Translations under genes and position numbers: made by a program
In this document: positions 34,902-47,903 of the stretch, piece by piece
Layout: each line of letters begins with the position of its first letter
How positions within the stretch are numbered: the stretch's first letter is position 1
Notes under the pieces: generated by a model
Databases searched by the model: none
What the model saw: the letters and a program-made list of their open reading frames with translations, nothing else
Told to the model about the DNA's origin: nothing
NCBI RefSeq assembly: GCF_008974325.1
Contig: NZ_BKCG01000001.1
Coordinates: forward strand, 1,054,001 to 1,118,000
Reading direction: 5' to 3'
Source of the DNA: Patiriisocius marinus
GTDB taxonomy: Bacteria; Bacteroidota; Bacteroidia; Flavobacteriales; Flavobacteriaceae
DNA length: 64,000 nt

Positions 34902-35156
34902 TTATGCAGATAATTTATTGGTAATTCTATTACTACGTCTTTGAACATAGGAATACAATATTTTATTTATCTCTCTTTGTTTAGAAGTCAGTTCTGTTAA
35001 AAAACCTTTGTCAGTATCAGTAACTTCTTTGCCGCAGCACGTACATTTATATTCGTGAATGTGCTGTGTAATTGTAGCAGTAACAACATAATGATGTCCT
35101 AAAACGGAGCACACTAAGGCCATTACTGGAGTGTTGTTTTGGAGAGTTTTTTTCAT
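34902..35156 (-). CDS. Small C-H-C-C zinc-ribbon-like protein (copy 1)
   Basis: The protein has 84 residues from the ATG at 35156 (MKKTLQNNTP); an upstream in-frame ATG at 35198 would add 14 unlikely residues. It has C16-x4-H21 and C38-x2-C41, exactly the spacing seen in the next gene. It carries a basic C-terminal tail (KQREINKILYSYVQRRSNR). The 2-base gap to the next gene indicates co-transcription. Function is unknown; nucleic-acid binding is only a possibility. Confidence 0.7.
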   Translation of the reverse strand: MKKTLQNNTPVMALVCSVLGHHYVVTATITQHIHEYKCTCCGKEVTDTDKGFLTELTSKQREINKILYSYVQRRSNRITNKLSA

Positions 35157-35219
35157 CTTAGTTAGTTTGTTAAGATAAAAGTAACAAATAAATCGCAATA
35201 AAACGGTTAAAGTGTAGAT

Positions 35220-36047: not shown

Positions 36048-37322
36048 ATGAATCCAACTAAACAAACTTTTATTGTTGCCTTTGCTTTGTTCTCGTTATT
36101 TTTTGGCGCGGGTAATTTGATATTACCTCCTTTATTAGGGTATAATGCTGGAAGTTCTTGGCCTTTGGTTTTATTGGGTTTTGCAATTAGTGCAGTGATA
36201 ATACCAATTCTTGCTATTTATGGACACGCACGATTACAAGGTACCTTGTTAGATTTTGCTAATAAAGTATCGCCAGTTTTTGCGGTAGTTTACGGAGTGA
36301 TAGTATATGCTATTTCTATTAGTTTGCCATCGCCAAGGACGGCATCTGTAACGTACGAAATGTCTATTGCACCTTATTTTGAAATGTCCAGCCTTACTTT
36401 AAGTGCTATTTATTTTTCATTGGTTTTAGTTTTCGCTTTAAATCGCACTAAGATATTAAGCCTTATTGGGAAATTTCTAACGCCTTTAATTATCCTCATT
36501 TTATTAGTTATTATAAGCATTGGTTTGTTCGCAGATGTTACGCCAATGAAGGACACTATTTTTTCAAGCACTTTTACAGATGGTATTTTAGAAGGATATC
36601 AAACTTTTGATGCTATTGGTGGTGTAGTAGTGGGAGGTGTAATTGTAGTATCGTTAGCATTGCAAGGAAAGTTTAATTACGAAGAAAAGAAACAAATGAT
36701 TGCAAAGGCTGGCTTGTTAGCTGGTTTTGGGCTAATCATTATTTACGGAGGTCTTATTGCTTTAGGTGCTTCATACAATACAACTATTATTACGGAAGAT
36801 CGTGTGGAGCTTTTACAAGTGTTGAGCACAACTACCTTAGGAAATATAGGGACTTCCTTTTTAGGCGTTTTAGTAGCGCTTGCTTGTTTTACAACAGCGG
36901 TTGGTATTGTAACAGGAACATCAGATTTTGTTAAAAAACTTACAGGAAACTCACAACTTGCGTACACTATTACTGCCGTTATAGGGTGTATAATAGGTGT
37001 TGCAGTGGGGCAGTTTGATGTACATTACATTATTGCGGTGGCTGTGCCAGCCCTTATGTTTATTTATCCTATTACCATTGTGCTTATTTTACTCAACGTT
37101 TTACCACAGCAGTTTGCAACGCCTTTAGTATTTAAAGTTGTTACCATTTTAACAATACTGTTTAGTATTCCAGATTTTGTTGGCTTCTTTTTAGAGGAAG
37201 GTGCCTTACACGCATTAACGCAATACATTCCATTAGCAACAAAAGGAATGGGCTGGGTATTACCAGCGTTTCTTGGTTTTGTAGGGGTTAATTTGTGGTT
37301 GAAGGGGAGGAGGGTTGGTTAG
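36048..37322 (+). CDS. brnQ: Branched-chain amino acid transport protein BrnQ
   Basis: The 424-residue protein has about 12 membrane helices and the LIVCS-family signature LFFGAGNLILPPLLG near the N-terminus. It imports leucine, isoleucine and valine with Na+ or H+. The gene is the last core gene before the defence-like island. Confidence 0.93.
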   Translation: MNPTKQTFIVAFALFSLFFGAGNLILPPLLGYNAGSSWPLVLLGFAISAVIIPILAIYGHARLQGTLLDFANKVSPVFAVVYGVIVYAISISLPSPRTASVTYEMSIAPYFEMSSLTLSAIYFSLVLVFALNRTKILSLIGKFLTPLIILILLVIISIGLFADVTPMKDTIFSSTFTDGILEGYQTFDAIGGVVVGGVIVVSLALQGKFNYEEKKQMIAKAGLLAGFGLIIIYGGLIALGASYNTTIITEDRVELLQVLSTTTLGNIGTSFLGVLVALACFTTAVGIVTGTSDFVKKLTGNSQLAYTITAVIGCIIGVAVGQFDVHYIIAVAVPALMFIYPITIVLILLNVLPQQFATPLVFKVVTILTILFSIPDFVGFFLEEGALHALTQYIPLATKGMGWVLPAFLGFVGVNLWLKGRRVG

Positions 37323-37534
37323 AAAGCGTTCGTTAAGGTGTAAAATAATTTAGACTTAATAAAGTGTTTATTCTTTTTAGAATTGGAGTACTTTATTATT
37401 TAACCTTAAAGCAAATTATTGTTAAATTTTTACTTATAGACTCATATTTGAGGATTACCGTAATGGGAGTGTTTGTTTAATTAATATTTTTATAGATTAT
37501 TATTGATAATTTATATTTTTTTTTATTGTTATAA
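37323..37534. other. AT-rich gap at the left edge of the defence island
   Basis: This 212-base gap has no gene. A weak all-AT hairpin (AATAAA 37358-37363 with TTTATT 37367-37372, then T residues) may end brnQ transcription. I saw no integrase, tRNA or clear direct repeat here. Confidence 0.5.
37419..37450 (+). promoter_or_regulatory. Candidate promoter of the defence island
   Basis: TTG at 37419-37421 and CATATTTG at 37443-37450 (one mismatch to TAnnTTTG) are 21 bases apart, the usual Bacteroidota -33/-7 spacing. They lie 84 bases before the first island gene. The -7 mismatch keeps confidence low. Confidence 0.3.
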
Positions 37535-39046
37535 ATGAGTAAATACAAAATAGAACCAAAACCCGGAAGTATTTTAGGGTCACTTAGAAGTATAGGCTAT
37601 AATTTGAAAACTGCACTTTCTGATATAGTTGATAATTCAATTGCTGCTAGAGCAAAAAAAATAGAAATTGTAAACAATGATTTTAATGAGAATATTGATC
37701 ATTTAGAATGGATGGCAATTATTGATGATGGCAATGGAATGACTATGGAGGATATGATTAAGGCATTGACATTAGGAGGAGAGGGAATTGAACGAGAGAG
37801 AAGTATTGAGGATTTAGGGAGATTTGGATTAGGTTTAAAAACAGCAAGTTTTTCTCAATGTAGAAAATTAACTTTAATTTCAAAAAAGGAAACAATTAAC
37901 TCTATAGTCTTTGATCTAGATTATATTGACAAAAATGGATGGGAGGTATATTCATTAGACAATCATAAATTGTTGATAGAAAAAATAAAGGCAAGAATTG
38001 AAAATAAAGAGATTTTTGACAGTGATAGTTGGACAGTAGTTCTTTGGGAAAATTTAGATAAAATTAAAATTACTTCTACCTCTAGTTTTTATTCGGAACT
38101 TTCGAAAGTTAGAAATCATTTTGAATTGATATACCACAAATTCAAAAACAGTGTAAATATTCGATTAAATGGAACATTAGTGAAATATTGGGATCCATAT
38201 AAAACTGCACTTTCTACTCAAGAGAAATTATTTAAATATAATTCCGGAGATGGGACTTATTCCTTGAAGGGACATGTTTTAAAACATTCTAGTGAATTTC
38301 AAAATAAAAATGAATACGAGAGTCAATCAGAGATTGGTACTTTTAATCAAAATCAAGGATTTTTCGTTTACAGAAATAAGAGATTAATCTATCGTGGAAG
38401 TTGGTTAGGTCTATTTAATAAAGAGCATCATTATATTTTAGGAAGAGTTGAGATTAATTTATCTAATAGTTTAGAGTCTGATTTGGCTTGGGGAGTAAAT
38501 ATTAGTAAATCTTCAGTTTCTATACCGAGATTTGCTGAATCAGATATAAGAGCTGAGTGTAATAAAGTGAGATCTGAAGCTAACAATACGTTTAGATTTC
38601 ATGGAGGAGTTAAGAAGCATAAAATAAGAAAAAAGAACACCGAAACGGAGATACAACCAATATGGAATTTTGAATCTAAAGGAGTAAAGACAGGAGAGAA
38701 AAATCAATATAAAATCAATATAAAACATCCATTATTCGATCAATTTTTAAAGAAATGCTCTGCAGATAAAACAATTCAAAAAGAGTTTAAGCAAATTTTG
38801 AGATACATAGAAAATTACCTACCTGTAGATAATATTTTTGCAAGAAAAGCTAATAATGAGGTAGAGCAATCATTGGAAGATGATCACGAAATTTATGAAA
38901 AATTTAAAGGGATAATGGAGATTTATAAAATAAGTATGAAAGTAGAAACTGCGTTTAACACATTAATTAATATAGAACCTTTTAATAGTTTGTCTTTTGA
39001 TAAAGAACGATTAATAGAACTAGGTGTCGACCCAAGCAATATATAA
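37535..39046 (+). CDS. GHKL ATPase, MutL/MORC/HSP90-like, of a defence locus
   Basis: The 503-residue protein has a GHKL (Bergerat) ATP-binding domain in its first 250 residues. The N-box region is LSDIVDNSIAA (28-38), the G1 motif DDGNGM (64-69) and the G2 lid GRFGLGLKTAS (95-105). The C-terminal half has no domain I recognise; it contains a lysine-rich stretch (about 356-367). The acidic residue at the catalytic general-base position looks like Asp30 rather than the usual Glu. Homologues of this kind occur with Z1, DUF4420 and AIPR genes in restriction-like loci and are thought to act as ATP-gated clamps. The Z1 gene starts 3 bases downstream. Confidence 0.85.
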   Translation: MSKYKIEPKPGSILGSLRSIGYNLKTALSDIVDNSIAARAKKIEIVNNDFNENIDHLEWMAIIDDGNGMTMEDMIKALTLGGEGIERERSIEDLGRFGLGLKTASFSQCRKLTLISKKETINSIVFDLDYIDKNGWEVYSLDNHKLLIEKIKARIENKEIFDSDSWTVVLWENLDKIKITSTSSFYSELSKVRNHFELIYHKFKNSVNIRLNGTLVKYWDPYKTALSTQEKLFKYNSGDGTYSLKGHVLKHSSEFQNKNEYESQSEIGTFNQNQGFFVYRNKRLIYRGSWLGLFNKEHHYILGRVEINLSNSLESDLAWGVNISKSSVSIPRFAESDIRAECNKVRSEANNTFRFHGGVKKHKIRKKNTETEIQPIWNFESKGVKTGEKNQYKINIKHPLFDQFLKKCSADKTIQKEFKQILRYIENYLPVDNIFARKANNEVEQSLEDDHEIYEKFKGIMEIYKISMKVETAFNTLINIEPFNSLSFDKERLIELGVDPSNI

Positions 39047-39049
39047 ATT

Positions 39050-41875
39050 ATGAATAATAAAATGATTAAAGATGTTGCACATGCAACTTTAAATGGTTTA
39101 AAAAACACGGGTAAAGATATAACAACTGCAATTATAAGAGAAACTGTTTTTAGCTTTCAAAATATTTATTCACCCGATATATATCCGAACATTAATTGGG
39201 AAGGAGTAATTAATGAGTTAGAATCACATTACACAATTACAATTGGTATAAGTGAAACGCTATATAATCATAGAATACCTTGGGTTCGTAATTATAAACA
39301 AAACAACCCTAATTTATCTGATTTTCCATTTTGGAATAATTATAAAAGATACTTATCTGAAATACAACAACTACCACAAACTGTGATAGATGAAATTGAT
39401 CAGAGTACTGATGCTATATTGGATGGAATGTCCAATCCAAGAGAAACAGATCATTTTGAAAAAAAAGGTTTAGTTATAGGCTATGTACAATCAGGTAAAA
39501 CAGGTAATTATGTTGGTTTAATAAACAAGGCTATTGATGTAGGGTATCAGTTTATAGTTGTTTTAGCCGGTATGCATAATAATTTACGTCAACAAACTCA
39601 ATTTAGAATAGATCAAGGCGTTAACGGTAAACAAAAAATTAATGGAGTTGAAACCAAAGTAGGTGTTGGAACACTAATGAATAGGTTTGATAATCAAACA
39701 CAGTCTTTAACTACAGCTGATGTTAAAGGTGATTTTAATTCTGCTGCAGCAAACATGAATGGTATAAATTTCAATTTAGAAGCTCCTTTAATTGCTGTAA
39801 TAAAGAAAAACGTACACCCGTTAAAAAACATGAACAAATGGTTAGAGAATGTTATTGGTATTAACATGGAGTCTCAATCTAATAAGGCTGTTTTAATTAT
39901 AGATGATGAAGCTGATCAAGCTAGTATTAATAATAATTTTAAGCTTGAAGACCTTGATGCTCCTATAGTTGATGAAGATGGAAATATAGATGAAGAAAAT
40001 AGACCAACAGCTATAAATGCTGGGATTGTTGATTTAATTAATAAGTTTAGCCGAAGATGTTATACTGGTTACACAGCAACTCCATATGCGAACGTGTTAA
40101 TTCCTTTAGATAATGAACATCATCAAAGTATTTTTCCTGAAGACTTTATTGTAAGATTGAAACAGCCTTCTAATTATCTAGGGCCTGAAAAATATTTTGA
40201 AGAAGGATTGCCTGGTATAATGGAAATAAATAGTATTGAAGGTTTCCCGGGACAACTTAAGTCTTATTACAAAGAAGAATTAGAAGAGTTAAATATGCCG
40301 GACTCTTTAAAGGTTGCAGCTAAGCAATTTATTGTTTCAGGAGCATTACGTTTTTTTAGAGGTCAAGAAAGGTCCCACATGTCTATGCTAATACACGTAT
40401 CCCACTTAACGATGATACAGAATGGTTTAGGAGATGTATTTAAGAATTATTGGAATGAACTTAAAGATAGCATTGAAAACAATAACGAGACAATGTGGAC
40501 AGAATTAAGTGATTTATTTCACGGAGGTAATATCGATGGGTTACAAGTGCAAGTTAATAACCAACAATTTTATACTCAAGCATATTCTGAAAATGAATCA
40601 TTTGCAAATAATAATTTTGACTTACCAACAAATTTCAGTGAATTAAGAGACCATATTAGAAGCTTTATTGCTGCTGTTGAAATTTTAGTAGTAAATGGAC
40701 ACAAAGATAATAAAGGGCAAAGCTTAGACTATCATTTATACCCGCATGGAAGAAAAGTAATAGCTATTGGAGGAAACACAATGTCTAGAGGATTAACATT
40801 GGAAGGCTTACATACAAGTTACTTTATCAGACATGCTAGGACATTTGATACACTAATGCAAATGGGGCGTTGGTTTGGTTATCGTTCTAATTATGCAGAT
40901 CTGTGTAGAATTATAACAACTACAGAAATAGCTATAGATTTTGGTGAAATTTGCTACGCTGACACCATTATGAATGAAAATATTTCAGCCATGATTAGAA
41001 GTAATGCATCACCAAGAGATTTTTTAATTAAAATTAGGCAATCTACAACAAGTTTGTCAGTTACTTCAAAAATGGGAGTAGCTGGTCCTATGCGGTTAAG
41101 TTGGGCTGGTGGTGAAGTTATTACAAATTCAATATCACGTAAACCAGATACAATTATTAACAATCATAATATTTTGTGTAAAATAATTGATAGAATAAAA
41201 GATAGATGTAATATTAACGAATTTGACAATAAACTAATTTTTAAAAACGTCAACATAGATGGAGAATTAGATGAATTAAAAAATGATAATTTTTTAATAA
41301 TTAACAATAATGGAAGTTTAGATTTTGATAAAATTTTTGAGTTTTACAAGAAGTCTGGATACGAAACAATCGATGTTGTTATAGTTGGTAGAAAACCTGG
41401 AAAACAAGATAATTATACTTTTATTGATAAAGAAATTGGTCTAGCTCAAAGAAATACTGCTAGGAGAAATGAAACAGAACCTAATCCAAATCACTTTAAG
41501 GTACCTAATGGTAAACTAACAGATGCTAATTATTTATCTGATTTTATTGGAGATAAGAAAGATGAATTGAATATTAAAGAAAAAAGAACCCCTTCTGTAA
41601 CTTGTTTATATCTCGAGAGACCGATAATCACTTTTGTAGCACTAGATCCAATGTTTTTTTATAGTAGTATTAATGTTTCTCGCGGAGATACGCCTTCTAT
41701 CGAAAATATGCATAGTGGTTTAGAAGATTTAAAAGATAATGATTTTGGACAATATATCGCTTTACCATATGGGATATCTATTGCGACACCTTCTTGTCTC
41801 CCTAATAGTAGATCTATAAACAATAACTCTGTTGATGTACTAGTCAATCAAATGGTAAACGATAACATTAATTAG
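39050..41875 (+). CDS. Z1-domain superfamily II helicase-like protein
   Basis: The 941-residue protein has helicase motifs in order: Walker A GYVQSGKTGN (144-153), Walker B VLIIDDEADQAS (281-292), YTGYTATPYAN (338-348), GGNTMSRGLTLEG (574-586) and QMGRWFGYR (604-612) with the motif VI arginines. The region around the last two motifs is the Z1 domain. The remaining 300 residues are not recognised. Z1 proteins are predicted nucleic-acid-dependent ATPases of restriction-like and plasmid loci. Here the protein probably couples ATP hydrolysis to DNA remodelling or translocation for the nuclease encoded 3 bases downstream. No direct activity is known to me. Confidence 0.88.
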   Translation: MNNKMIKDVAHATLNGLKNTGKDITTAIIRETVFSFQNIYSPDIYPNINWEGVINELESHYTITIGISETLYNHRIPWVRNYKQNNPNLSDFPFWNNYKRYLSEIQQLPQTVIDEIDQSTDAILDGMSNPRETDHFEKKGLVIGYVQSGKTGNYVGLINKAIDVGYQFIVVLAGMHNNLRQQTQFRIDQGVNGKQKINGVETKVGVGTLMNRFDNQTQSLTTADVKGDFNSAAANMNGINFNLEAPLIAVIKKNVHPLKNMNKWLENVIGINMESQSNKAVLIIDDEADQASINNNFKLEDLDAPIVDEDGNIDEENRPTAINAGIVDLINKFSRRCYTGYTATPYANVLIPLDNEHHQSIFPEDFIVRLKQPSNYLGPEKYFEEGLPGIMEINSIEGFPGQLKSYYKEELEELNMPDSLKVAAKQFIVSGALRFFRGQERSHMSMLIHVSHLTMIQNGLGDVFKNYWNELKDSIENNNETMWTELSDLFHGGNIDGLQVQVNNQQFYTQAYSENESFANNNFDLPTNFSELRDHIRSFIAAVEILVVNGHKDNKGQSLDYHLYPHGRKVIAIGGNTMSRGLTLEGLHTSYFIRHARTFDTLMQMGRWFGYRSNYADLCRIITTTEIAIDFGEICYADTIMNENISAMIRSNASPRDFLIKIRQSTTSLSVTSKMGVAGPMRLSWAGGEVITNSISRKPDTIINNHNILCKIIDRIKDRCNINEFDNKLIFKNVNIDGELDELKNDNFLIINNNGSLDFDKIFEFYKKSGYETIDVVIVGRKPGKQDNYTFIDKEIGLAQRNTARRNETEPNPNHFKVPNGKLTDANYLSDFIGDKKDELNIKEKRTPSVTCLYLERPIITFVALDPMFFYSSINVSRGDTPSIENMHSGLEDLKDNDFGQYIALPYGISIATPSCLPNSRSINNNSVDVLVNQMVNDNIN

Positions 41876-41878
41876 GCT

Positions 41879-42910
41879 ATGAGTATAAAAGAAATATTCA
41901 CAGAATTGATACGGGATGTAAAGTCTGGTGGGCAATATGATACTCGACTTGTAGATTTTGATGATGCTAATAGATATAAAACTATTTTAGCTATTGATAA
42001 ACTTTCTGACAACCAACAATGTGTTCTGTTACAATTAAAAAATGGTGGTCAACAATCTGATGTTATTATAAATAATATCAATACACTAGATAGTATTCAG
42101 GTGGATACTTTTCCTGTTGCCGATCCTGGGACAACCGGCTTAGATACATATTATAGTATTAAACTTGATAGAAATACTGAAGAAGACATTTTTTATGCTT
42201 TCATTACTGATATAATAGAGACAGCAAAAAACTCAAATTCTGATTTAGTTATTTTAGATATTTTAAAGAGGGTCAAGTCTTGGATGAACTTTTTTAAATC
42301 TAAAAAAACAGGAGTTTTGTCAGAAAATGGACAGATTGGTTTATTTGCAGAATTGACAATGCTTAAAACATTATTAGAGTGCAACAAAGAAAACTTATTA
42401 GATATTATTACAAGTTGGGTAGGACCCAAAAAACAAAATCAAGATTTTATTTTCCCCAATACTCAAGCAATTGAAGTTAAATGTACTACCTCGAATAATC
42501 TATATGAAGTTAAAATAAATAACGAGTATCAATTAGATTGTAGTGGTTTAGAACGATTATTTCTAGCTGTTTATCAACTTAAAAGGCATAAAATAAGTGA
42601 AAATTCATTGTTTCAGTCTTTACCTAATTTGATTGAAGATATTAAAGCCATATTGCAAAATGATTTTGATGCTAAATTTGATTTTGAAGGTTTATTATTA
42701 GATGTGGGATATTTGGCAGAAGCAGAGGTTGAATATTTAGACTTTGGATTTCAAATCATTAATGGACCAAATATCTATGATGTAGATTCAGAGTTTCCAA
42801 AATTAGCAAGAACTTCTATTTCTAATTCTATTAAAAAAGTAGAGTACAATTTAAATTTACAAGAACAAAAAATATTTAGTAATAATGTTGTTGAATTAAT
42901 AAGTTTATAA
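41879..42910 (+). CDS. PD-(D/E)XK motif protein (DUF4420), putative endonuclease
   Basis: The 343-residue protein has the DUF4420 pattern: GLFAELTMLKTLLE (E158), WVGPKKQNQDFIF (D189) and AIEVKCTTS (E199, K201), forming a complete PD-(D/E)XK catalytic set. It is the best candidate for the DNA-cutting subunit of the locus. Its TAA overlaps the ATG of the AIPR gene (TAATG at 42908-42912), which suggests translational coupling. The gap to the Z1 gene is 3 bases. DNA cleavage is inferred from the fold and context. Confidence 0.85.
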   Translation: MSIKEIFTELIRDVKSGGQYDTRLVDFDDANRYKTILAIDKLSDNQQCVLLQLKNGGQQSDVIINNINTLDSIQVDTFPVADPGTTGLDTYYSIKLDRNTEEDIFYAFITDIIETAKNSNSDLVILDILKRVKSWMNFFKSKKTGVLSENGQIGLFAELTMLKTLLECNKENLLDIITSWVGPKKQNQDFIFPNTQAIEVKCTTSNNLYEVKINNEYQLDCSGLERLFLAVYQLKRHKISENSLFQSLPNLIEDIKAILQNDFDAKFDFEGLLLDVGYLAEAEVEYLDFGFQIINGPNIYDVDSEFPKLARTSISNSIKKVEYNLNLQEQKIFSNNVVELISL

Positions 42911-45078
42911 TGAGTTTTTTTACCACCCTAAAATCCTTAACAGAAGAAAAGCTTTCACAGGATTCTCAATTAAATGCTGAGTCAGCTTTTTGTGAAATTG
43001 CATCTGACTATTTAATAGATTCGTCTTTAATCTCGAACTTTGAACAATCTCAATATTTTAAAGAAAATGATAGTAATAGGAACTTGAAAATTGACGGATT
43101 TTCAATTAATGAGAATGAAACTGTTTTATCACTGTTGATAGCAAATTATAATAACTCTGATGAAGCAGGGAAGTTGAACTTGAAAGATGTTGAACAACAA
43201 TTTAAACAATTGTATAGGGTGTTGAATTATGTTGTTAGGACCAATGAATATAATGTACCAAAAGCTAATATTTTATCAGCTTTAAATACGGAATATCATG
43301 CAGGTATTAAAAAGAACATTGTTAAGGTCGACTTTTACCTACTTACTAATAATACTGCGGTAAATAAAAAAGATGTAGACCTAAAAAGGATTCTTTCAAA
43401 AGTTGATATTGATTCGGTTATAGATTATAACTTTAGAATATACGATATTCAGGAATTAGAGAGATTACACAAGAATAATCAGAAACTAGATATTGACGTT
43501 GAAGATTATTATGATAAACCCATTAATGTCCTTAAGCCGAAGCTAGGAAACTCTAGTTATGGTACTGCAATTGCCATACTTCCAGGTCGCTTTTTATATA
43601 ACATCTATAGTGATTTTGGTGGTCGATTATTAGAAAGCAATGTAAGGTCGTTTTTGTCGTCAAGAATTAAGGTTAATAAAGGGATAAAAGACACATTATT
43701 AAACAGACCAGAAATGTTCTTAGCTTATAATAATGGTTTATGCTTAACAGTGTCGGAAATAATATTTAATGATGATAATTCAGTAAAGACTTTTAAGAAT
43801 TTTCAAATTGTAAATGGAGGCCAAACAACTTCTTCAATATTTTTTGCAACGCAAGAAGCTAAAAAAACAAAAATGAATATTGAGCTAGATAAAGTGAATG
43901 TTATGGCAAAAATTACTGAAATCAGAAGGAATATTGATTCTGTTAAAATTCAATCTAATATTGCTAAAAATAGTAATCTTCAAAATGCAGTTAAACAATC
44001 AGACTTATCAAGTAATGAAGAGTACTTAATTACCTTGCATGCATGTTCTAAAAAATTCAGAAATCCAACTTCAAATAACTATTATTATTTCGAACGAACA
44101 AGAGGTCAATATCAACTTGAGAAAAACCTTAGTAAAAATGAAAATTATTTTTTAAATCTATTCCCTAGAAATCAAAAATTTGAAAAATCAGATTTGTCAA
44201 TTTTATTTTTTTGTGCGATTGGCAATAAGATTGAACCTTTTATTTCCGTTCAAAGTGCTGAAAAAAGATATAAAATAATAAGAGATCAATTTGACTCTGA
44301 AAATAAAAAAATAAGTAAAGAATATTATATCAATATAATAGGTTCATTTATTTTTTATAAACTTTTAAAAACAAAGTATGGCATCGGTAATAATGCTATT
44401 GGGAGAATAAGGAAAAATGTTATAGCATATTCTATTTCATTAATACAAGAATATTTATTGAAGTCGAATAAGAGTATTGACTTTCAGAATATTTGGAGTA
44501 ATGATGGTGTGAATATTCACGAGGAAAAAATTAAATACTTTTTGACTTATATTAATCAATTGTTACTTTACAATTTAGATGATGGGCGCCTTGATGAAGC
44601 TTGTAAAAAGAAAGAGTCTTGGGATATAATAAAAACTAATATTGATTGGAGTGAGTTAGATTCAATTATTGAAGTATTGCCAGTTTGCGAAATTAAAAAA
44701 TTCAAAAAAAATCCATCCGCAAAATTAAATTTAGATAACAAATATAAGCTCATGGTAGACGAGATTAACCTGATGGTTTCTTCTCCATCTAAATATTTTA
44801 TACTTCAAACACGACTTCAAGAAGAAATCAACAATTATATGAAAGATGGTATGTCCTTATATAGCCGAAGACATCTTAGGTTAATGAAAGATCATTTCAG
44901 GCCAAATTCTAAATTAACCGCGTTTAGTCCGTATACGTACGAGTTGTACTTAGTTAATTGTTGTAATAAAAATGGGGAAATAATTAACAGGAAATTTTCA
45001 GAATTGAAAATTTACTTAGATGATCTTTATCGAGTATTTAATGCTATCTTAAAAGATGAACTTCTTGATTTGGACTAG
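42910..45078 (+). CDS. AIPR-family protein (abortive-infection phage-resistance family)
   Basis: The 722-residue protein carries the AIPR hallmark at about 237-310: FGGRLLESNVRSFLSSRIKV, then MFLAYNNGLCLTVSEI and FQIVNGGQTTSSI. The N-terminal part also matches the family (IDGFSINENETVLSLLI at 61-77). AIPR proteins were linked to abortive infection in Lactococcus and often lie next to Z1 and DUF4420 genes. Their biochemical role is unclear. The start overlaps the stop of the putative nuclease, so the two products are probably made in fixed ratio. Confidence 0.87.
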   Translation: MSFFTTLKSLTEEKLSQDSQLNAESAFCEIASDYLIDSSLISNFEQSQYFKENDSNRNLKIDGFSINENETVLSLLIANYNNSDEAGKLNLKDVEQQFKQLYRVLNYVVRTNEYNVPKANILSALNTEYHAGIKKNIVKVDFYLLTNNTAVNKKDVDLKRILSKVDIDSVIDYNFRIYDIQELERLHKNNQKLDIDVEDYYDKPINVLKPKLGNSSYGTAIAILPGRFLYNIYSDFGGRLLESNVRSFLSSRIKVNKGIKDTLLNRPEMFLAYNNGLCLTVSEIIFNDDNSVKTFKNFQIVNGGQTTSSIFFATQEAKKTKMNIELDKVNVMAKITEIRRNIDSVKIQSNIAKNSNLQNAVKQSDLSSNEEYLITLHACSKKFRNPTSNNYYYFERTRGQYQLEKNLSKNENYFLNLFPRNQKFEKSDLSILFFCAIGNKIEPFISVQSAEKRYKIIRDQFDSENKKISKEYYINIIGSFIFYKLLKTKYGIGNNAIGRIRKNVIAYSISLIQEYLLKSNKSIDFQNIWSNDGVNIHEEKIKYFLTYINQLLLYNLDDGRLDEACKKKESWDIIKTNIDWSELDSIIEVLPVCEIKKFKKNPSAKLNLDNKYKLMVDEINLMVSSPSKYFILQTRLQEEINNYMKDGMSLYSRRHLRLMKDHFRPNSKLTAFSPYTYELYLVNCCNKNGEIINRKFSELKIYLDDLYRVFNAILKDELLDLD

Positions 45079-45201
45079 AAAAAAGCTTTTTAAGTTTAAG
45101 ATTAATAATATGTTTACAATTAGTGAAAGCTAAACAATGTAGTAGAAAGGAATTAAAATAGTTTGAGTAATTTCGCAAATACTGGCATTTTAAGACACTT
45201 T

Positions 45202-46632
45202 ATGAACAACAAAAACAAATACACTTATGTAGATTTATTCTCAGGTGCTGGTGGCTTAACTCTAGGTTTTGGAAACAAAGGATTTCATCTTGAAATGGCC
45301 AACGATATTGCTGAGCCAGCTTTGAATACTTTTAAGGAGAATTTATATAAAACGCATCCAGATACTAATGTGAATAGAGTAATTCTTGGAGATATTAAAG
45401 AGCTCTATGAACATCTTGAGAATGGAAACGTAAGCTATGATGTATTGGGGCATATGGTTGTTGAAACTAATAAAGAAATTGAATTACGTAAAAAAGTACC
45501 CTCTGTTAAAGACGATAGTGAAATAAAAAATATCCTTAAGGGTATAAGGCATATAGATGTGCTTGTGGGAGGTCCCCCTTGTCAAGGGTTCTCTATGATA
45601 GGTCGCTCAAAAAAATCAACGATAGAAGAGCGGACTAAAGGTTTTATTGATGATCCAAGAAATCAACTTTTCAAGTATTATTTAAAATTTGCTGAAAAGT
45701 TATCTCCGAAACTAGTTTTGATTGAAAATGTGAAAGGGTTAGTCTCTGCTTCAGGGTACAGAGATTTAATTGAAAAATCTCTAACAGATACAGGTAAATA
45801 CGGTTATGATACTTCATCTCACATATTGAATGCGAAAGATTTTGGCCTAGCTCAAAATAGAGAACGTATTTTTTTTATAGGGGTGAGAAAAGACTTGTCA
45901 GAAAAATATAGCATCAAAGCTTCAGATATTTTTGATGATATTATAAAAAGTAAAGAAACCGAGGTAAAGTTAAAGGATGTTATTTTTGATTTACCACAGA
46001 TTAAGGCAAATCCAAAACCGAATAACTACAAAGAAGAAGCAGAAGTTTCATTTCGAAATTTGAAATTTTGTTTTGGTAAAAACATTTCAGATATTTCTTA
46101 TAAAGATTTAATTAGTAAGAACGGAGACAATAATTATCCAAATAGAATTAACACATATAACGGTAAGTTGAAAGTTTCTAGGTTTCTCTTCAATCATAAA
46201 TCAAGATATCATAATGAAAGAGATTTATTTATATATGAAAATCTTGTAGCAGGTAAATACTTAAACGACCCTCTTAATGAAAAGGCTTTATCAAAAGTTA
46301 CTTATGGTGTTGTAATCGATGAAAAAGGAAATAAAAAAGTAAAAGGATTTGGGGATAAGTATTTTAAGTTAGACCCAGAGAGTGTATCTAAAACAATTAT
46401 TGCGCATTTAGAAACAGATGGTAATTCATATGTTCACCCAGGGCTTCACCCTAGAAGTATTACTCCTAGGGAGGCAGCTAGAATTCAATCTTTCCCGGAT
46501 TGGTATTTTTTTACTGGTAGCACACGGAATCAATTTAAACAAATAGGTAATGCAGTTCCTCCTATTTTAGGTGGAATATTTGCAGAGAATTTTAAAAACA
46601 TATTAGACCGTATTGGGCAAGATGAGAAATAA
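45202..46632 (+). CDS. DNA cytosine-C5 methyltransferase (first of two)
   Basis: The protein has 476 residues from the ATG at 45202 (MNNKNKYTYVDLFSGAGG); a TTG at 45163 would add 13 residues. C5-methyltransferase motifs appear in order: I DLFSGAGGLTLGF, IV GGPPCQGFS with catalytic Cys127, VI LIENVKGL, VIII QNRERIFFIGV and X GNAVPP. The region between VIII and IX (about 215-365) is the target recognition domain. There is an insertion of about 40-50 residues between motifs III and IV. It methylates a cytosine in a sequence that cannot be read from the gene. It overlaps the second methyltransferase by 11 bases. Confidence 0.93.
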   Translation: MNNKNKYTYVDLFSGAGGLTLGFGNKGFHLEMANDIAEPALNTFKENLYKTHPDTNVNRVILGDIKELYEHLENGNVSYDVLGHMVVETNKEIELRKKVPSVKDDSEIKNILKGIRHIDVLVGGPPCQGFSMIGRSKKSTIEERTKGFIDDPRNQLFKYYLKFAEKLSPKLVLIENVKGLVSASGYRDLIEKSLTDTGKYGYDTSSHILNAKDFGLAQNRERIFFIGVRKDLSEKYSIKASDIFDDIIKSKETEVKLKDVIFDLPQIKANPKPNNYKEEAEVSFRNLKFCFGKNISDISYKDLISKNGDNNYPNRINTYNGKLKVSRFLFNHKSRYHNERDLFIYENLVAGKYLNDPLNEKALSKVTYGVVIDEKGNKKVKGFGDKYFKLDPESVSKTIIAHLETDGNSYVHPGLHPRSITPREAARIQSFPDWYFFTGSTRNQFKQIGNAVPPILGGIFAENFKNILDRIGQDEK

Positions 46633-47878
46633 AAAATTAACTTTTATTGATTTATTTGCTGGGTGCGGTGGATTATCTGAAGGATTTATTATGTCAGGTA
46701 AATATGATGCTCTTGCTCATGTTGAGTGGGAAATCCCTATGGTAAGGACTCTTAGGTCTAGACTTAAGAAAAAATGGCAACATACAAATGAGGATGCATT
46801 TAAAAGAGTTGTACATTTTGATATTCAGAAAACAGATGAGCTTATTAATGGTAATTGGGTAGAGGATACTGTTAAGGATTTTGGAGCTACAAACCATGTT
46901 AATGTTATTGAAAGAGGTTTAAAAGGACTTGTAGGTAAAAAGACTGTTGATTTAATTATAGGAGGCCCTCCTTGTCAGGCATATTCAATTGCTGGCAGAG
47001 CGCAAGATGCTAATTCCATGAAAGAAGACTACAGAAACTTTTTATTCGAAAGCTTTATTAAAGTGGTAGATGCCTTTCAGCCTAATATGTTTGTTTTTGA
47101 AAATGTTCCTGGCATACTTAGTGCTAATCCAGGAGGAAAACTTGTAACGGAAAGAATTTATGAATCGTTTAAAGATTTTGGGTATCAAATATTGGAGCCA
47201 AAGGAACTGAAATCTACAGTATTAACCTCAAGTAACTTTGGGGTAGCACAAAATAGAAAAAGAGTTATCATTATCGGTTTAAAGAATAATCTCATATCTG
47301 AATCTTTTAATTTGAAATCGATTTATTCAGAAATAAATATACAAAAGAGTGAAAAGGTGAAAACTTTATTTGACGCTATTGGTCATCTTCCTAAGTTTAA
47401 GCCTGCTTTTGATGTTAAGTTGAAAAATGGAAAAAAAGTATCTCATATCCCACTATTAGAGAATTGTATTATTCCTGAAAATCATGAGCCAAGATTTCAT
47501 AATAAGCGTGATGTGAACATCTTTAAAAAATGGGTTTTAAATAAAATGAATAATCGTTCTATGGAAGAGCGAATACAGTTTTATAATAATTTGGTAGGAA
47601 AAAATTCTAAACATTCTAAATATAGAAGCTTAGAATGGGATAAACCTTCTCAAACAATTGTAGCTCATTTAAATAAAGATGGTTTGTTATTTATCCACCC
47701 TGATGCTAATCAAGGTAGATCGATCACAGTAAAAGAAGCGGCTTTAATTCAATCATTTCCTGATGATTATGAATTTAAAGAAACTATGGGTAATAATTAT
47801 AAAATGATAGGAAATGCAGTTCCTCCTGAAATGGCTAGGAAAATTGCTATTGCAATAAGTAAGTTTTTTAATAAATAA
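46622..47878 (+). CDS. DNA cytosine-C5 methyltransferase (second of two)
   Basis: The protein has 418 residues from the ATG at 46622; a TTG at 46613 is an alternative. Motifs are I FIDLFAGCGGLSEGF, IV GGPPCQAYS with catalytic Cys118, VI FENVPGIL, VIII QNRKRVIIIGL and X GNAVPPEMA. It is clearly different from the first enzyme, especially in the recognition region, so the pair probably protects two strands of an asymmetric site or two sites. The last codons and TAA lie inside the 50-bp palindrome that forms the right edge of the island. Confidence 0.93.
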   Translation: MRNKKLTFIDLFAGCGGLSEGFIMSGKYDALAHVEWEIPMVRTLRSRLKKKWQHTNEDAFKRVVHFDIQKTDELINGNWVEDTVKDFGATNHVNVIERGLKGLVGKKTVDLIIGGPPCQAYSIAGRAQDANSMKEDYRNFLFESFIKVVDAFQPNMFVFENVPGILSANPGGKLVTERIYESFKDFGYQILEPKELKSTVLTSSNFGVAQNRKRVIIIGLKNNLISESFNLKSIYSEINIQKSEKVKTLFDAIGHLPKFKPAFDVKLKNGKKVSHIPLLENCIIPENHEPRFHNKRDVNIFKKWVLNKMNNRSMEERIQFYNNLVGKNSKHSKYRSLEWDKPSQTIVAHLNKDGLLFIHPDANQGRSITVKEAALIQSFPDDYEFKETMGNNYKMIGNAVPPEMARKIAIAISKFFNK

Positions 47879-47903
47879 TTATTTATTAAAAAACTTACTT
47901 ATT
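47854..47903. terminator. Perfect 50-bp palindrome: shared terminator and island edge
   Basis: Arms at 47854-47876 and 47881-47903 are perfect reverse complements, and the centre AATT is itself palindromic. The left arm encodes the end of the second methyltransferase, whose TAA (47876-47878) runs into the centre, while the right arm holds the stop and last codons of aminopeptidase P on the other strand. A and T runs are inside the arms, so the structure could serve as a bidirectional terminator. Its perfect symmetry and AT-rich content are unusual for a simple terminator. Confidence 0.75.

Follow-up and report, generated by a model that had tools for sequence, protein, structure and literature searches.

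The window analysed here, a 64,000-nucleotide stretch of Patiriisocius marinus DNA (contig NZ_BKCG01000001.1, positions 1,054,001 to 1,118,000), contains at positions 37535-47878 an island of six intact genes that probably constitutes a complete Mza-like restriction-modification (RM) system. The first four genes, B, C, D and E (the core), are followed by two C5 methyltransferase genes, M1 and M2:

37535-39046, forward strand: B, MzaB-like GHKL (MORC-family) ATPase of 503 amino acids (Pfam HATPase_c_3, PADLOC, NCBIfam and motif residues).
39050-41875, forward strand: C, MzaC-like superfamily II helicase-type ATPase with a Z1 domain, 941 amino acids (Pfam, PADLOC and NCBIfam).
41879-42910, forward strand: D, MzaD-like DUF4420 PD-(D/E)XK protein of 343 amino acids (Pfam, PADLOC and NCBIfam).
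42910-45078, forward strand: E, MzaE-like AIPR protein of 722 amino acids (Pfam, PADLOC and NCBIfam).
45163-46632, forward strand: M1, C5 methyltransferase (Pfam DNA_methylase), open reading frame (ORF) from TTG 45163, probable start ATG 45202.
46613-47878, forward strand: M2, C5 methyltransferase (Pfam DNA_methylase), ORF from TTG 46613, possible start ATG 46622.

These ORF coordinates, with gaps of 3 bases between B and C and between C and D and a 1-base overlap between D and E, agree with an earlier annotation of the window made from its letters (hereafter the sequence-only reading), and Pfam recovered every domain named there: HATPase_c_3 (E = 1.5e-27) in B, Z1 (2.4e-63) in C, DUF4420 (1.6e-56) in D, AIPR (1.5e-55) and AIPR_N (1.7e-17) in E, and DNA_methylase in M1 and M2 (2.7e-58 and 2.7e-57). 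The overlap reported between the two methyltransferase genes amounts to 20 bases for the ORFs beginning at TTG and shrinks to 11 bases if the in-frame ATG starts are used. M1 is probably translated from ATG 45202 rather than from TTG 45163, because upstream of that codon it shows poor likeness to two close relatives; for M2, ATG 46622 is a possible start in place of TTG 46613. All six genes are under purifying selection, with ratios of non-synonymous to synonymous substitution rates (dN/dS) of 0.05-0.27 in three pairs per gene, part of the dS values being saturated. If the island is an RM system, as we consider probable, the set is likely to be complete and its function maintained by selection.

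The best PADLOC matches of the first four genes were MzaB (2.5e-59), MzaC (1e-114), MzaD (6.5e-23) and MzaE (3.3e-43). Their NCBIfam scores against the same four families (239, 457, 130 and 211 bits) reach 20-31% of the equivalog cut-offs (850, 1500, 420 and 1050 bits), which are not attained by any of the four proteins. Ten MzaC relatives from viral contigs likewise fall under the cut-off (458-824 bits), and at least one further relative among the 19 scanned was matched with E = 0. MZA is reportedly an anti-phage system, MzaABCDE, described by Gao and colleagues in 2020. The island resembles MZA in carrying homologues of MzaB, C, D and E in one operon in the order B-C-D-E, and differs from it in that the sigma factor MzaA is part of MZA whereas the island carries two C5 methyltransferases. 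No ORF of at least 80 amino acids that could encode MzaA lies between brnQ, which ends at 37322, and position 37535, and the island has no extra gene, the rest of the genome not having been searched for MzaA. As the relevant section of PMC9523054 puts it, MzaA is found in only few of the related systems.

The same paper bears more directly on the identity of the island. Its type II is a putative, MORC-associated defence system of a Z1 protein (~925 amino acids), a PD-(D/E)XK protein, a cytosine methyltransferase and AIPR, ~20% identical to mzaBCDE in the account given there. Z1, DUF4420 (we took the wording DUF4220 to mean this family), C5 methyltransferase, AIPR and MORC components are all present in the island, which fits type II, at a level at which that text does not separate II-A from II-B. 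One cytosine methyltransferase is named in the type II core there, whereas the island has two in tandem. The defence-finder run proposed in the sequence-only reading thus returned MzaB-E for the core with both PADLOC and NCBIfam, an identity that the reading itself had missed, as it had the publication of this core plus a C5 methyltransferase as a putative defence system (PMC9523054).

Its assignment of the locus to the MORC-like loci of Iyer, Abhiman and Aravind (2008) proved sound. The third operon class of that work, in the part that treats it (PMC2292703), combines a MORC ATPase with the motif GhXhhpXXRhl, a helicase with DThhQXuRhFG and an E-D-ExK protein, together with methylases. All three motifs are present in the window, the first as GFFVYRNKRLI in the GHKL protein and the second as DTLMQMGRWFG in the Z1 protein, and strict patterns recovered them in 38 of 39, 34 of 41 and 37 of 39 family ORFs, respectively. 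The 2008 class is a genomic prediction; in the same part, AIPR is called frequent in RM operons and stands without a fold or a role (PMC2292703). Because the window fits both type II of PMC9523054 and this earlier operon class, the kind of system is already known and catalogued, and the variant feature of the island is its two tandem C5 methyltransferases.

A further statement, that the genes do not fit BREX, DISARM, Dnd or type I/III RM systems, was also borne out: at E 0.01 in PADLOC, the hits of the core proteins are confined to Mza models and one type II helicase model. M1 and M2 match generic MTase_II, DrmMII and DruM models among the best 25 of their 63 and 61 matches. The signature proteins of the other systems are PglZ (BREX), DrmABC (DISARM), DndCDE (Dnd/Ssp), HsdRMS (type I) and Mod/Res (type III). 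The mark of CglI/NgoAVII, a PLD-superfamily nuclease with a B3 DNA-binding domain, gave no Pfam match in the six proteins.

Most catalytic motifs of the core are strongly conserved; those of the C and D proteins lie as follows:

39488-39502, forward strand: Walker A, residues 147-151 of the MzaC-like protein (alignment).
39902-39916, forward strand: Walker B, DDEAD, residues 285-289 of the MzaC-like protein (alignment).
40304-41053, forward strand: Z1 domain, residues 419-668 of the MzaC-like protein (Pfam PF10593).
40847-40879, forward strand: DTLMQMGRWFG, motif of the MORC-linked helicase class, residues 600-610 of the MzaC-like protein (motif match).
42350-42481, forward strand: predicted nuclease site E158-D189-E199-K201 of the DUF4420 protein (alignments).

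Among solved structures, MORC2 entries give the GHKL protein its best sequence matches. Its tested residues D33, N34, D64, G68, G98, G100, K102, T167 and K325 are invariant in 18 of 18 sequences. The QSGKT, DDExD and TATP motifs of the Z1 protein are invariant in 22 of 22; one of the 19 rows of a second alignment carries F in place of S148. Two alignments of 20 sequences each show no exception to the E-D-ExK residues of the DUF4420 protein. The view that all catalytic motifs are intact therefore stands for these three proteins and, by eye, for the methyltransferases, and fails for the N-terminus of the AIPR protein, in whose strand region (residues 42-84) no (D/E)xK was seen by eye. Sequence profiles of the AIPR, DUF4420 and Z1 proteins matched no solved structure. 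A fold search with the DUF4420 model returned only weak matches to kinase N-lobes (residues ~12-128, Z up to 6.3); we did not adopt kinase kinship for these N-terminal strands (41879-42265, residues 1-129), which probably represent a common beta arrangement.

The distribution of the system is patchy: relatives of the Z1 protein were found in 6 of 197 related genomes, and the Z1 domain in 18 of the 392 genomes of a phylum sample, the genome under study being included in both counts. We examined 50 loci, comprising two close kin and 20 others picked by Z1 and 28 viral-contig loci picked by AIPR, after setting aside the 14 weakest of the 42 viral-contig AIPR hits, which showed AIPR alone. The sequence-only reading had made its proposal depend on the co-occurrence of the four core genes elsewhere, and they do co-occur: a contiguous B-C-D-E in that order is present in 29 of the 50 loci (12 of the 22 picked by Z1 and 17 of the 28 picked by AIPR). 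Within the stretches read, one C5 methyltransferase accompanies the core in 26 of these 29 loci, two in 2 and none in 1 (L057), the loci with two being only the window's close kin, L002 and L003. The position of the methyltransferase varies among the relatives (upstream, downstream or on the opposite strand). The loci outside the 29 include three with the order M-B-C-D, which lack AIPR and have a shorter Z1 protein, one with B-C-D and an opposite-strand methyltransferase, and one E-B-C-D-M; the remaining ones have fewer of the genes, and several lie at contig ends. In three viral contigs (L073, L080 and L082), an AIPR gene and a GHKL gene are accompanied by an opposite-strand methyltransferase gene, with no Z1 or DUF4420 gene in the stretch read; this arrangement is possibly another AIPR system.

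The same six genes are present in Aureibaculum flavum (L002) and Winogradskyella ludwigii (L003), and the module is thus common to three genera. DNA identity with these loci is 86-88% in the core and 75% in the methyltransferases, and the matches span positions 37523 or 37527 to 47853 or 47856. The window's flank genes, brnQ, pepP and a Crp-like gene, were not found in the examined stretches of L002 or L003. At the two edges of the module lie:

37323-37534, forward strand: intergenic leader of 212 bases between brnQ and the MzaB-like gene (from ORF positions), in which DNA likeness to both close kin starts only at 37523-37527.
47854-47903, no strand assigned: perfect palindrome of two overlapping 29-base arms, covering the last codons of M2 and of the convergent pepP, perhaps a two-way terminator.

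In the genus of the window, brnQ and pepP are adjacent in 5 of the 7 loci examined. One of the other two has a PLD-ResIII-DUF3427 helicase gene between brnQ and pepP (L060:8965-12105 in genome G006), at the same spot as the window's island, and one starts at a contig end and has no brnQ in 11 kb. A search of 11 genomes of the genus, including that of the window, recovered PepP in every one, with three poorer assemblies left out. The brnQ/pepP junction looks like an insertion hot spot. No tRNA gene is present in the window, and the Pfam scan detected no integrase gene in the six-gene module. A fragment of a DUF3427 protein is also found in L003 (7623-7913), approximately 0.55 kb upstream of the module. 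Among the viral contigs, the L079 locus adjoins genes for a phage major head protein and a head-tail adaptor. The module is itself a mosaic: compared with L002, the window is 97-99% identical at 40.7-42.3 kb and ~74% identical from the D/E junction, with a second drop, to 75%, at the B/C junction.

These features bear on the idea that the genes form a DNA repair or replication cluster, with MutL-like and helicase genes, that has no part in defence. The GHKL protein has its ATPase fold in common with MutL, and Vsr repair genes adjoin the methyltransferase in three relatives (see below). The patchy distribution, the sharing of the module by several genera, the prophage genes beside the L079 copy and the restriction-type helicase gene at the same spot in a sister genome all argue against a repair cluster, which we regard as very improbable, and the context of the island supports a function in restriction well.

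The two METHYLTRANSFERASES are not sisters in the methyltransferase tree of 48 rows, in which M1 and M2 each fall in a clade with their own kin (100/100). The tree contains some long branches, and frames of fewer than 300 amino acids were dropped from it. The longest frames taken for L074 and some other loci are over-extended at the start. The Lactococcus plasmid p275D carries two overlapping C5 methyltransferase genes next to a PLD-B3 nuclease gene of the NgoFVII type; M2 shares 45% identity, over 96% of its length, with the product of the second of them, whereas M1 reaches only 27% with either. No relatives of M1 were found in one pattern scan of the viral contigs. In locus L168 (genome G532), an M2-like gene (39%) and an M1-like gene (35%) overlap head to tail, with an AAA_5 gene two genes on. 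AAA_5 includes McrB, and the set therefore resembles LlaJI, here with a GHKL neighbour. This segment (L168:3436-13643) also encodes a 558-amino-acid protein without a Pfam match and a 709-amino-acid protein with two GHKL-type matches. In the LlaJI description drawn on here (PMC1459862), two 5-methylcytosine (5mC) methyltransferases and an McrB-like subunit act at the asymmetric site GACGC/GCGTC. The LlaJI and p275D systems share with the island two tandem C5 methyltransferases and differ from it in their unrelated restriction halves (McrBC-like or PLD-B3). By analogy, the simplest reading would be that a tandem methyltransferase pair for an asymmetric site was recruited to an Mza-type core.

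The relatives reveal that the core and METHYLTRANSFERASE are separable. Among the 26 loci with a contiguous B-C-D-E and exactly one methyltransferase (L002 and L003, with two, and L057, with none, being dropped), distances of B, C, D and E correlate among themselves at 0.49-0.71, whereas those of the methyltransferase and the core do not (r -0.02 to 0.03; p 0.31-0.68 in partial tests). The clearest single case is provided by the viral contigs L079 and L083, in which the methyltransferases are 93% identical and the B, C, D and E proteins 37, 38, 28 and 36% identical, respectively. The upstream stretch of 91% DNA identity extends 34 bases into the longest L079 B frame and stops ~150 bases short of the L083 one; a downstream stretch, also of 91%, sets in 16 and 131 bases after the E frames. 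In the interval, alignment is confined to pieces of 153-249 bases at 67-76%. Because the DNA is 91% identical on both sides and not across B-C-D-E, these four genes were exchanged together while the neighbouring methyltransferase stayed in place. All three loci tested for a Vsr gene (L074, L079 and L090) have one next to their C5 methyltransferase. Vsr repairs damage caused by 5mC, and its position next to the methyltransferase therefore suggests that the enzyme is active in these loci. ParB-methyltransferase genes are found downstream of the Mza-type cassettes in the viral contigs L074, L079 and L083.

The AIPR protein was modelled with AlphaFold2 from 28 sequences (the window, L002, L003 and viral contigs), with a mean predicted local distance difference test score of 75.6 and a predicted template modelling score (pTM) of 0.43. 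Three parts of it can be distinguished:

42910-43485, forward strand: AIPR residues 1-192, nuclease-like fold with no ExK seen (model, fold search and inspection by eye).
43540-44001, forward strand: AIPR residues 211-364, weak match to ParB/Srx-type nucleoside triphosphatase (NTPase) domains (fold search, Z 4.3-5.7).
43813-43830, forward strand: AIPR motif NGGQTT, residues 302-307 (alignments).

In a second fold search, residues 1-192 matched AF1548 (Z 9.7; annotated as a protein of unknown function), AspBHI (8.6), FokI (8.5) and MspJI (8.4). No (D/E)xK was seen by eye in the strand region, residues 42-84, of alignments of 28 and 14 rows, and this part is predicted to be non-cutting. Of the best 50 fold matches, 5 start after residue 205, and all 5 belong to one group: PadC (Z 5.7), SspE (5.1, 5.0 and 4.8) and BrxU (4.3). 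The NGGQTT motif is present in 42 of the 56 AIPR-family frames found. SspE and BrxU/GmrSD combine a ParB/Srx NTPase with an HNH nuclease; AIPR may resemble them in fold at residues 211-364 and in the placing of NGGQTT on the GmrS motif, whereas their HNH nuclease has no Pfam counterpart in the island proteins. A GmrSD-type (DUF262) gene is present elsewhere in the same genome (G000:C9:38003-38656). Passages of two papers fit a ParB-type AIPR core, since the N-terminus of DndB is assigned to the AIPR family in one (PMC3506569) and DndB is called a ParB-superfamily protein in the other (PMC12839542). AIPR and ParB are also mentioned together in parts of PMC12839542 and PMC5379612, the latter of which treats Z1 and DUF4420 as well.

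Two other explanations turn on this protein. AIPR could be a toxin by which infected cells are killed or arrested, with the other genes sensing phage DNA. The HEPN fold expected of such a toxin is all-helical. Abortive infection is suggested by the very name of the family and by the N-terminal HEPN toxin domain ascribed to AIPR proteins in PMC3506569; that assignment does not fit our model, of moderate confidence (pTM as above), in which the N-terminus is alpha-beta with nuclease-like best matches and no ExK seen. The methyltransferases found in 28 of the 29 loci moreover point to self-marking, and we consider this explanation unlikely. Alternatively, the core could attack foreign-modified DNA in the manner of type IV enzymes, with the methyltransferases serving a separate, linked function. 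The weak resemblance of the AIPR core to SspE and BrxU, both modification-dependent, and the separate exchange of the methyltransferases would suit such an arrangement, but the same near-constant C5 methyltransferase linkage is better explained by protection or guidance, which makes it more unlikely still.

For an Mza-like RM island, we infer the following scheme from family and fold. M1 and M2 would put 5mC on host DNA, probably one on each strand of an asymmetric site, and the four core proteins would form one ATP-driven machine acting on DNA without the host mark, so that restriction would be modification-protected. By analogy with CglI, the Z1 protein would be the motor and the DUF4420 protein, with its E-D-ExK site, the cutter: in the portions of PMC4267653 and PMC5737866 on that enzyme, a Z1-domain ATPase drives a separate nuclease, translocation being proposed and the Z1 domains being proposed for dimerisation. 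As described there, CglI/NgoAVII resembles the island in having the Z1-domain ATPase as a separate motor protein and differs from it in its PLD-B3 nuclease with its own target recognition and in having no GHKL or AIPR gene among its three genes. The MORC-type GHKL protein would be an ATP-closed clamp that holds or loops DNA, a looping role that Iyer and colleagues propose (PMC2292703). AIPR would be a non-cutting, perhaps NTP-binding, sensor or licensing subunit, and might license cutting much as SspE, in the relevant account (PMC13251355), couples recognition, GTP hydrolysis and cleavage.

We lean towards a core that would lack a matched sequence-recognition domain and would draw its specificity from the methyltransferase or the mark. 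In its fullest form, this would make B-C-D-E a largely sequence-blind core with DUF4420 as the sole catalytic nuclease, AIPR a ParB/SspE-type NTPase reading the state of the DNA or of the methyltransferase, and the exchangeable methyltransferase, or tandem pair, the source of specificity, possibly through contact with the GHKL protein. We consider this modular scheme doubtful, and several results weigh against it as well as against the restriction scheme outlined above. In a scan of 115 stretches, B 101-165 alone passed the familywise 5% level for co-variation with the methyltransferase (r 0.37, p 0.038). In overlapping data, a part of it is unusually alike in pairs that share a methyltransferase:

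37847-37933, forward strand: GHKL residues 105-133, stretch co-varying with the methyltransferase in relatives (stretch scans).

Compared with 207 background pairs, the likeness of B 105-133 is 0.69 versus 0.46 in L079/L083 (z 3.7) and 0.72 versus 0.46 in L074/L083 (z 4.3), with z 2.6 in L079/L090; the next stretch is D 1-26 (z 2.9-3.3). B 105-133 is therefore a candidate contact or recognition element, and argues against full independence of core and methyltransferase, whose separate exchange would also fit two cores that happen to share one target. The structural side of the scheme met similar difficulties. Foldseek returned no match at E 0.001 or better for the AIPR model, and the Z scores of 4.3-5.7 for the ParB/SspE likeness lie under 8, below which the fold search tool may be registering only a common arrangement. 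The conserved motif QIVNGGQTT was aligned with the GmrS motif by hhalign with a non-significant probability of 0.15% (24 GmrS-type sequences), a comparison with 25 ParB sequences gave 0.27% at another place, and full-length AIPR profiles compared with GmrS-type and ParB proteins scored no better than controls. The DUF4420 model, too, returned no match to a nuclease fold in the fold search, in which the nuclease part was barely covered, and none with Foldseek at E 0.001.

Several of these points could also indicate a conventional RM system, in which one core protein reads the sequence methylated by M1/M2 and is blocked by the methylation. The restriction halves of CglI and LlaJI, as far as their sources describe them, each have a recognition subunit, the R-protein of CglI binding GCCGC (PMC4267653). 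Co-variation with the methyltransferase is highest for a stretch of B and, to a smaller degree, of C; B 105-133 stands out as above; and in the comparison with L002 the genes E, M1 and M2 diverge together past the D/E breakpoint, in contrast to most of D and the 3' half of C, which remain 97-99% identical. On the other hand, no whole core protein correlates with the methyltransferase over the 26 loci; B 105-133 and weaker cases like D 1-26 are the only stretches to stand out in L079/L083 or L074/L083; no core stretch is near 90% alike, as the methyltransferases are; and the mosaic has its further divergent stretch at the B/C junction. A conventional system is a possible but tentative explanation. 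AIPR as a specificity subunit co-evolving with the methyltransferase, an idea prompted by the joint divergence of the genes E, M1 and M2, was not retained after no correlation was found over the 26 loci.

Outside the island, a minus-strand ORF of 98 amino acids (34902-35198) has no Pfam match at E 0.01.

The new points of most use from this analysis are that core and methyltransferase are exchanged separately in relatives, MzaB holding a candidate contact, and that AIPR receives a fold assignment that is testable and still weak. Defence finders already list Mza and its relatives, and no mechanism for them appeared among the papers listed in our literature searches. The island is a compact, two-methyltransferase version of Mza whose mark could be read by methylome sequencing. 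Should AIPR be a ParB/SspE-type NTPase, a mechanism would become available for a family whose name refers only to abortive infection, and if the modular scheme were true, cores and methyltransferases should be swappable without killing the host. The relatives provide a natural experiment, in which one methyltransferase stands beside cores only 28-38% identical, and what the MORC-Z1-DUF4420-AIPR machine recognises thereby becomes directly testable.

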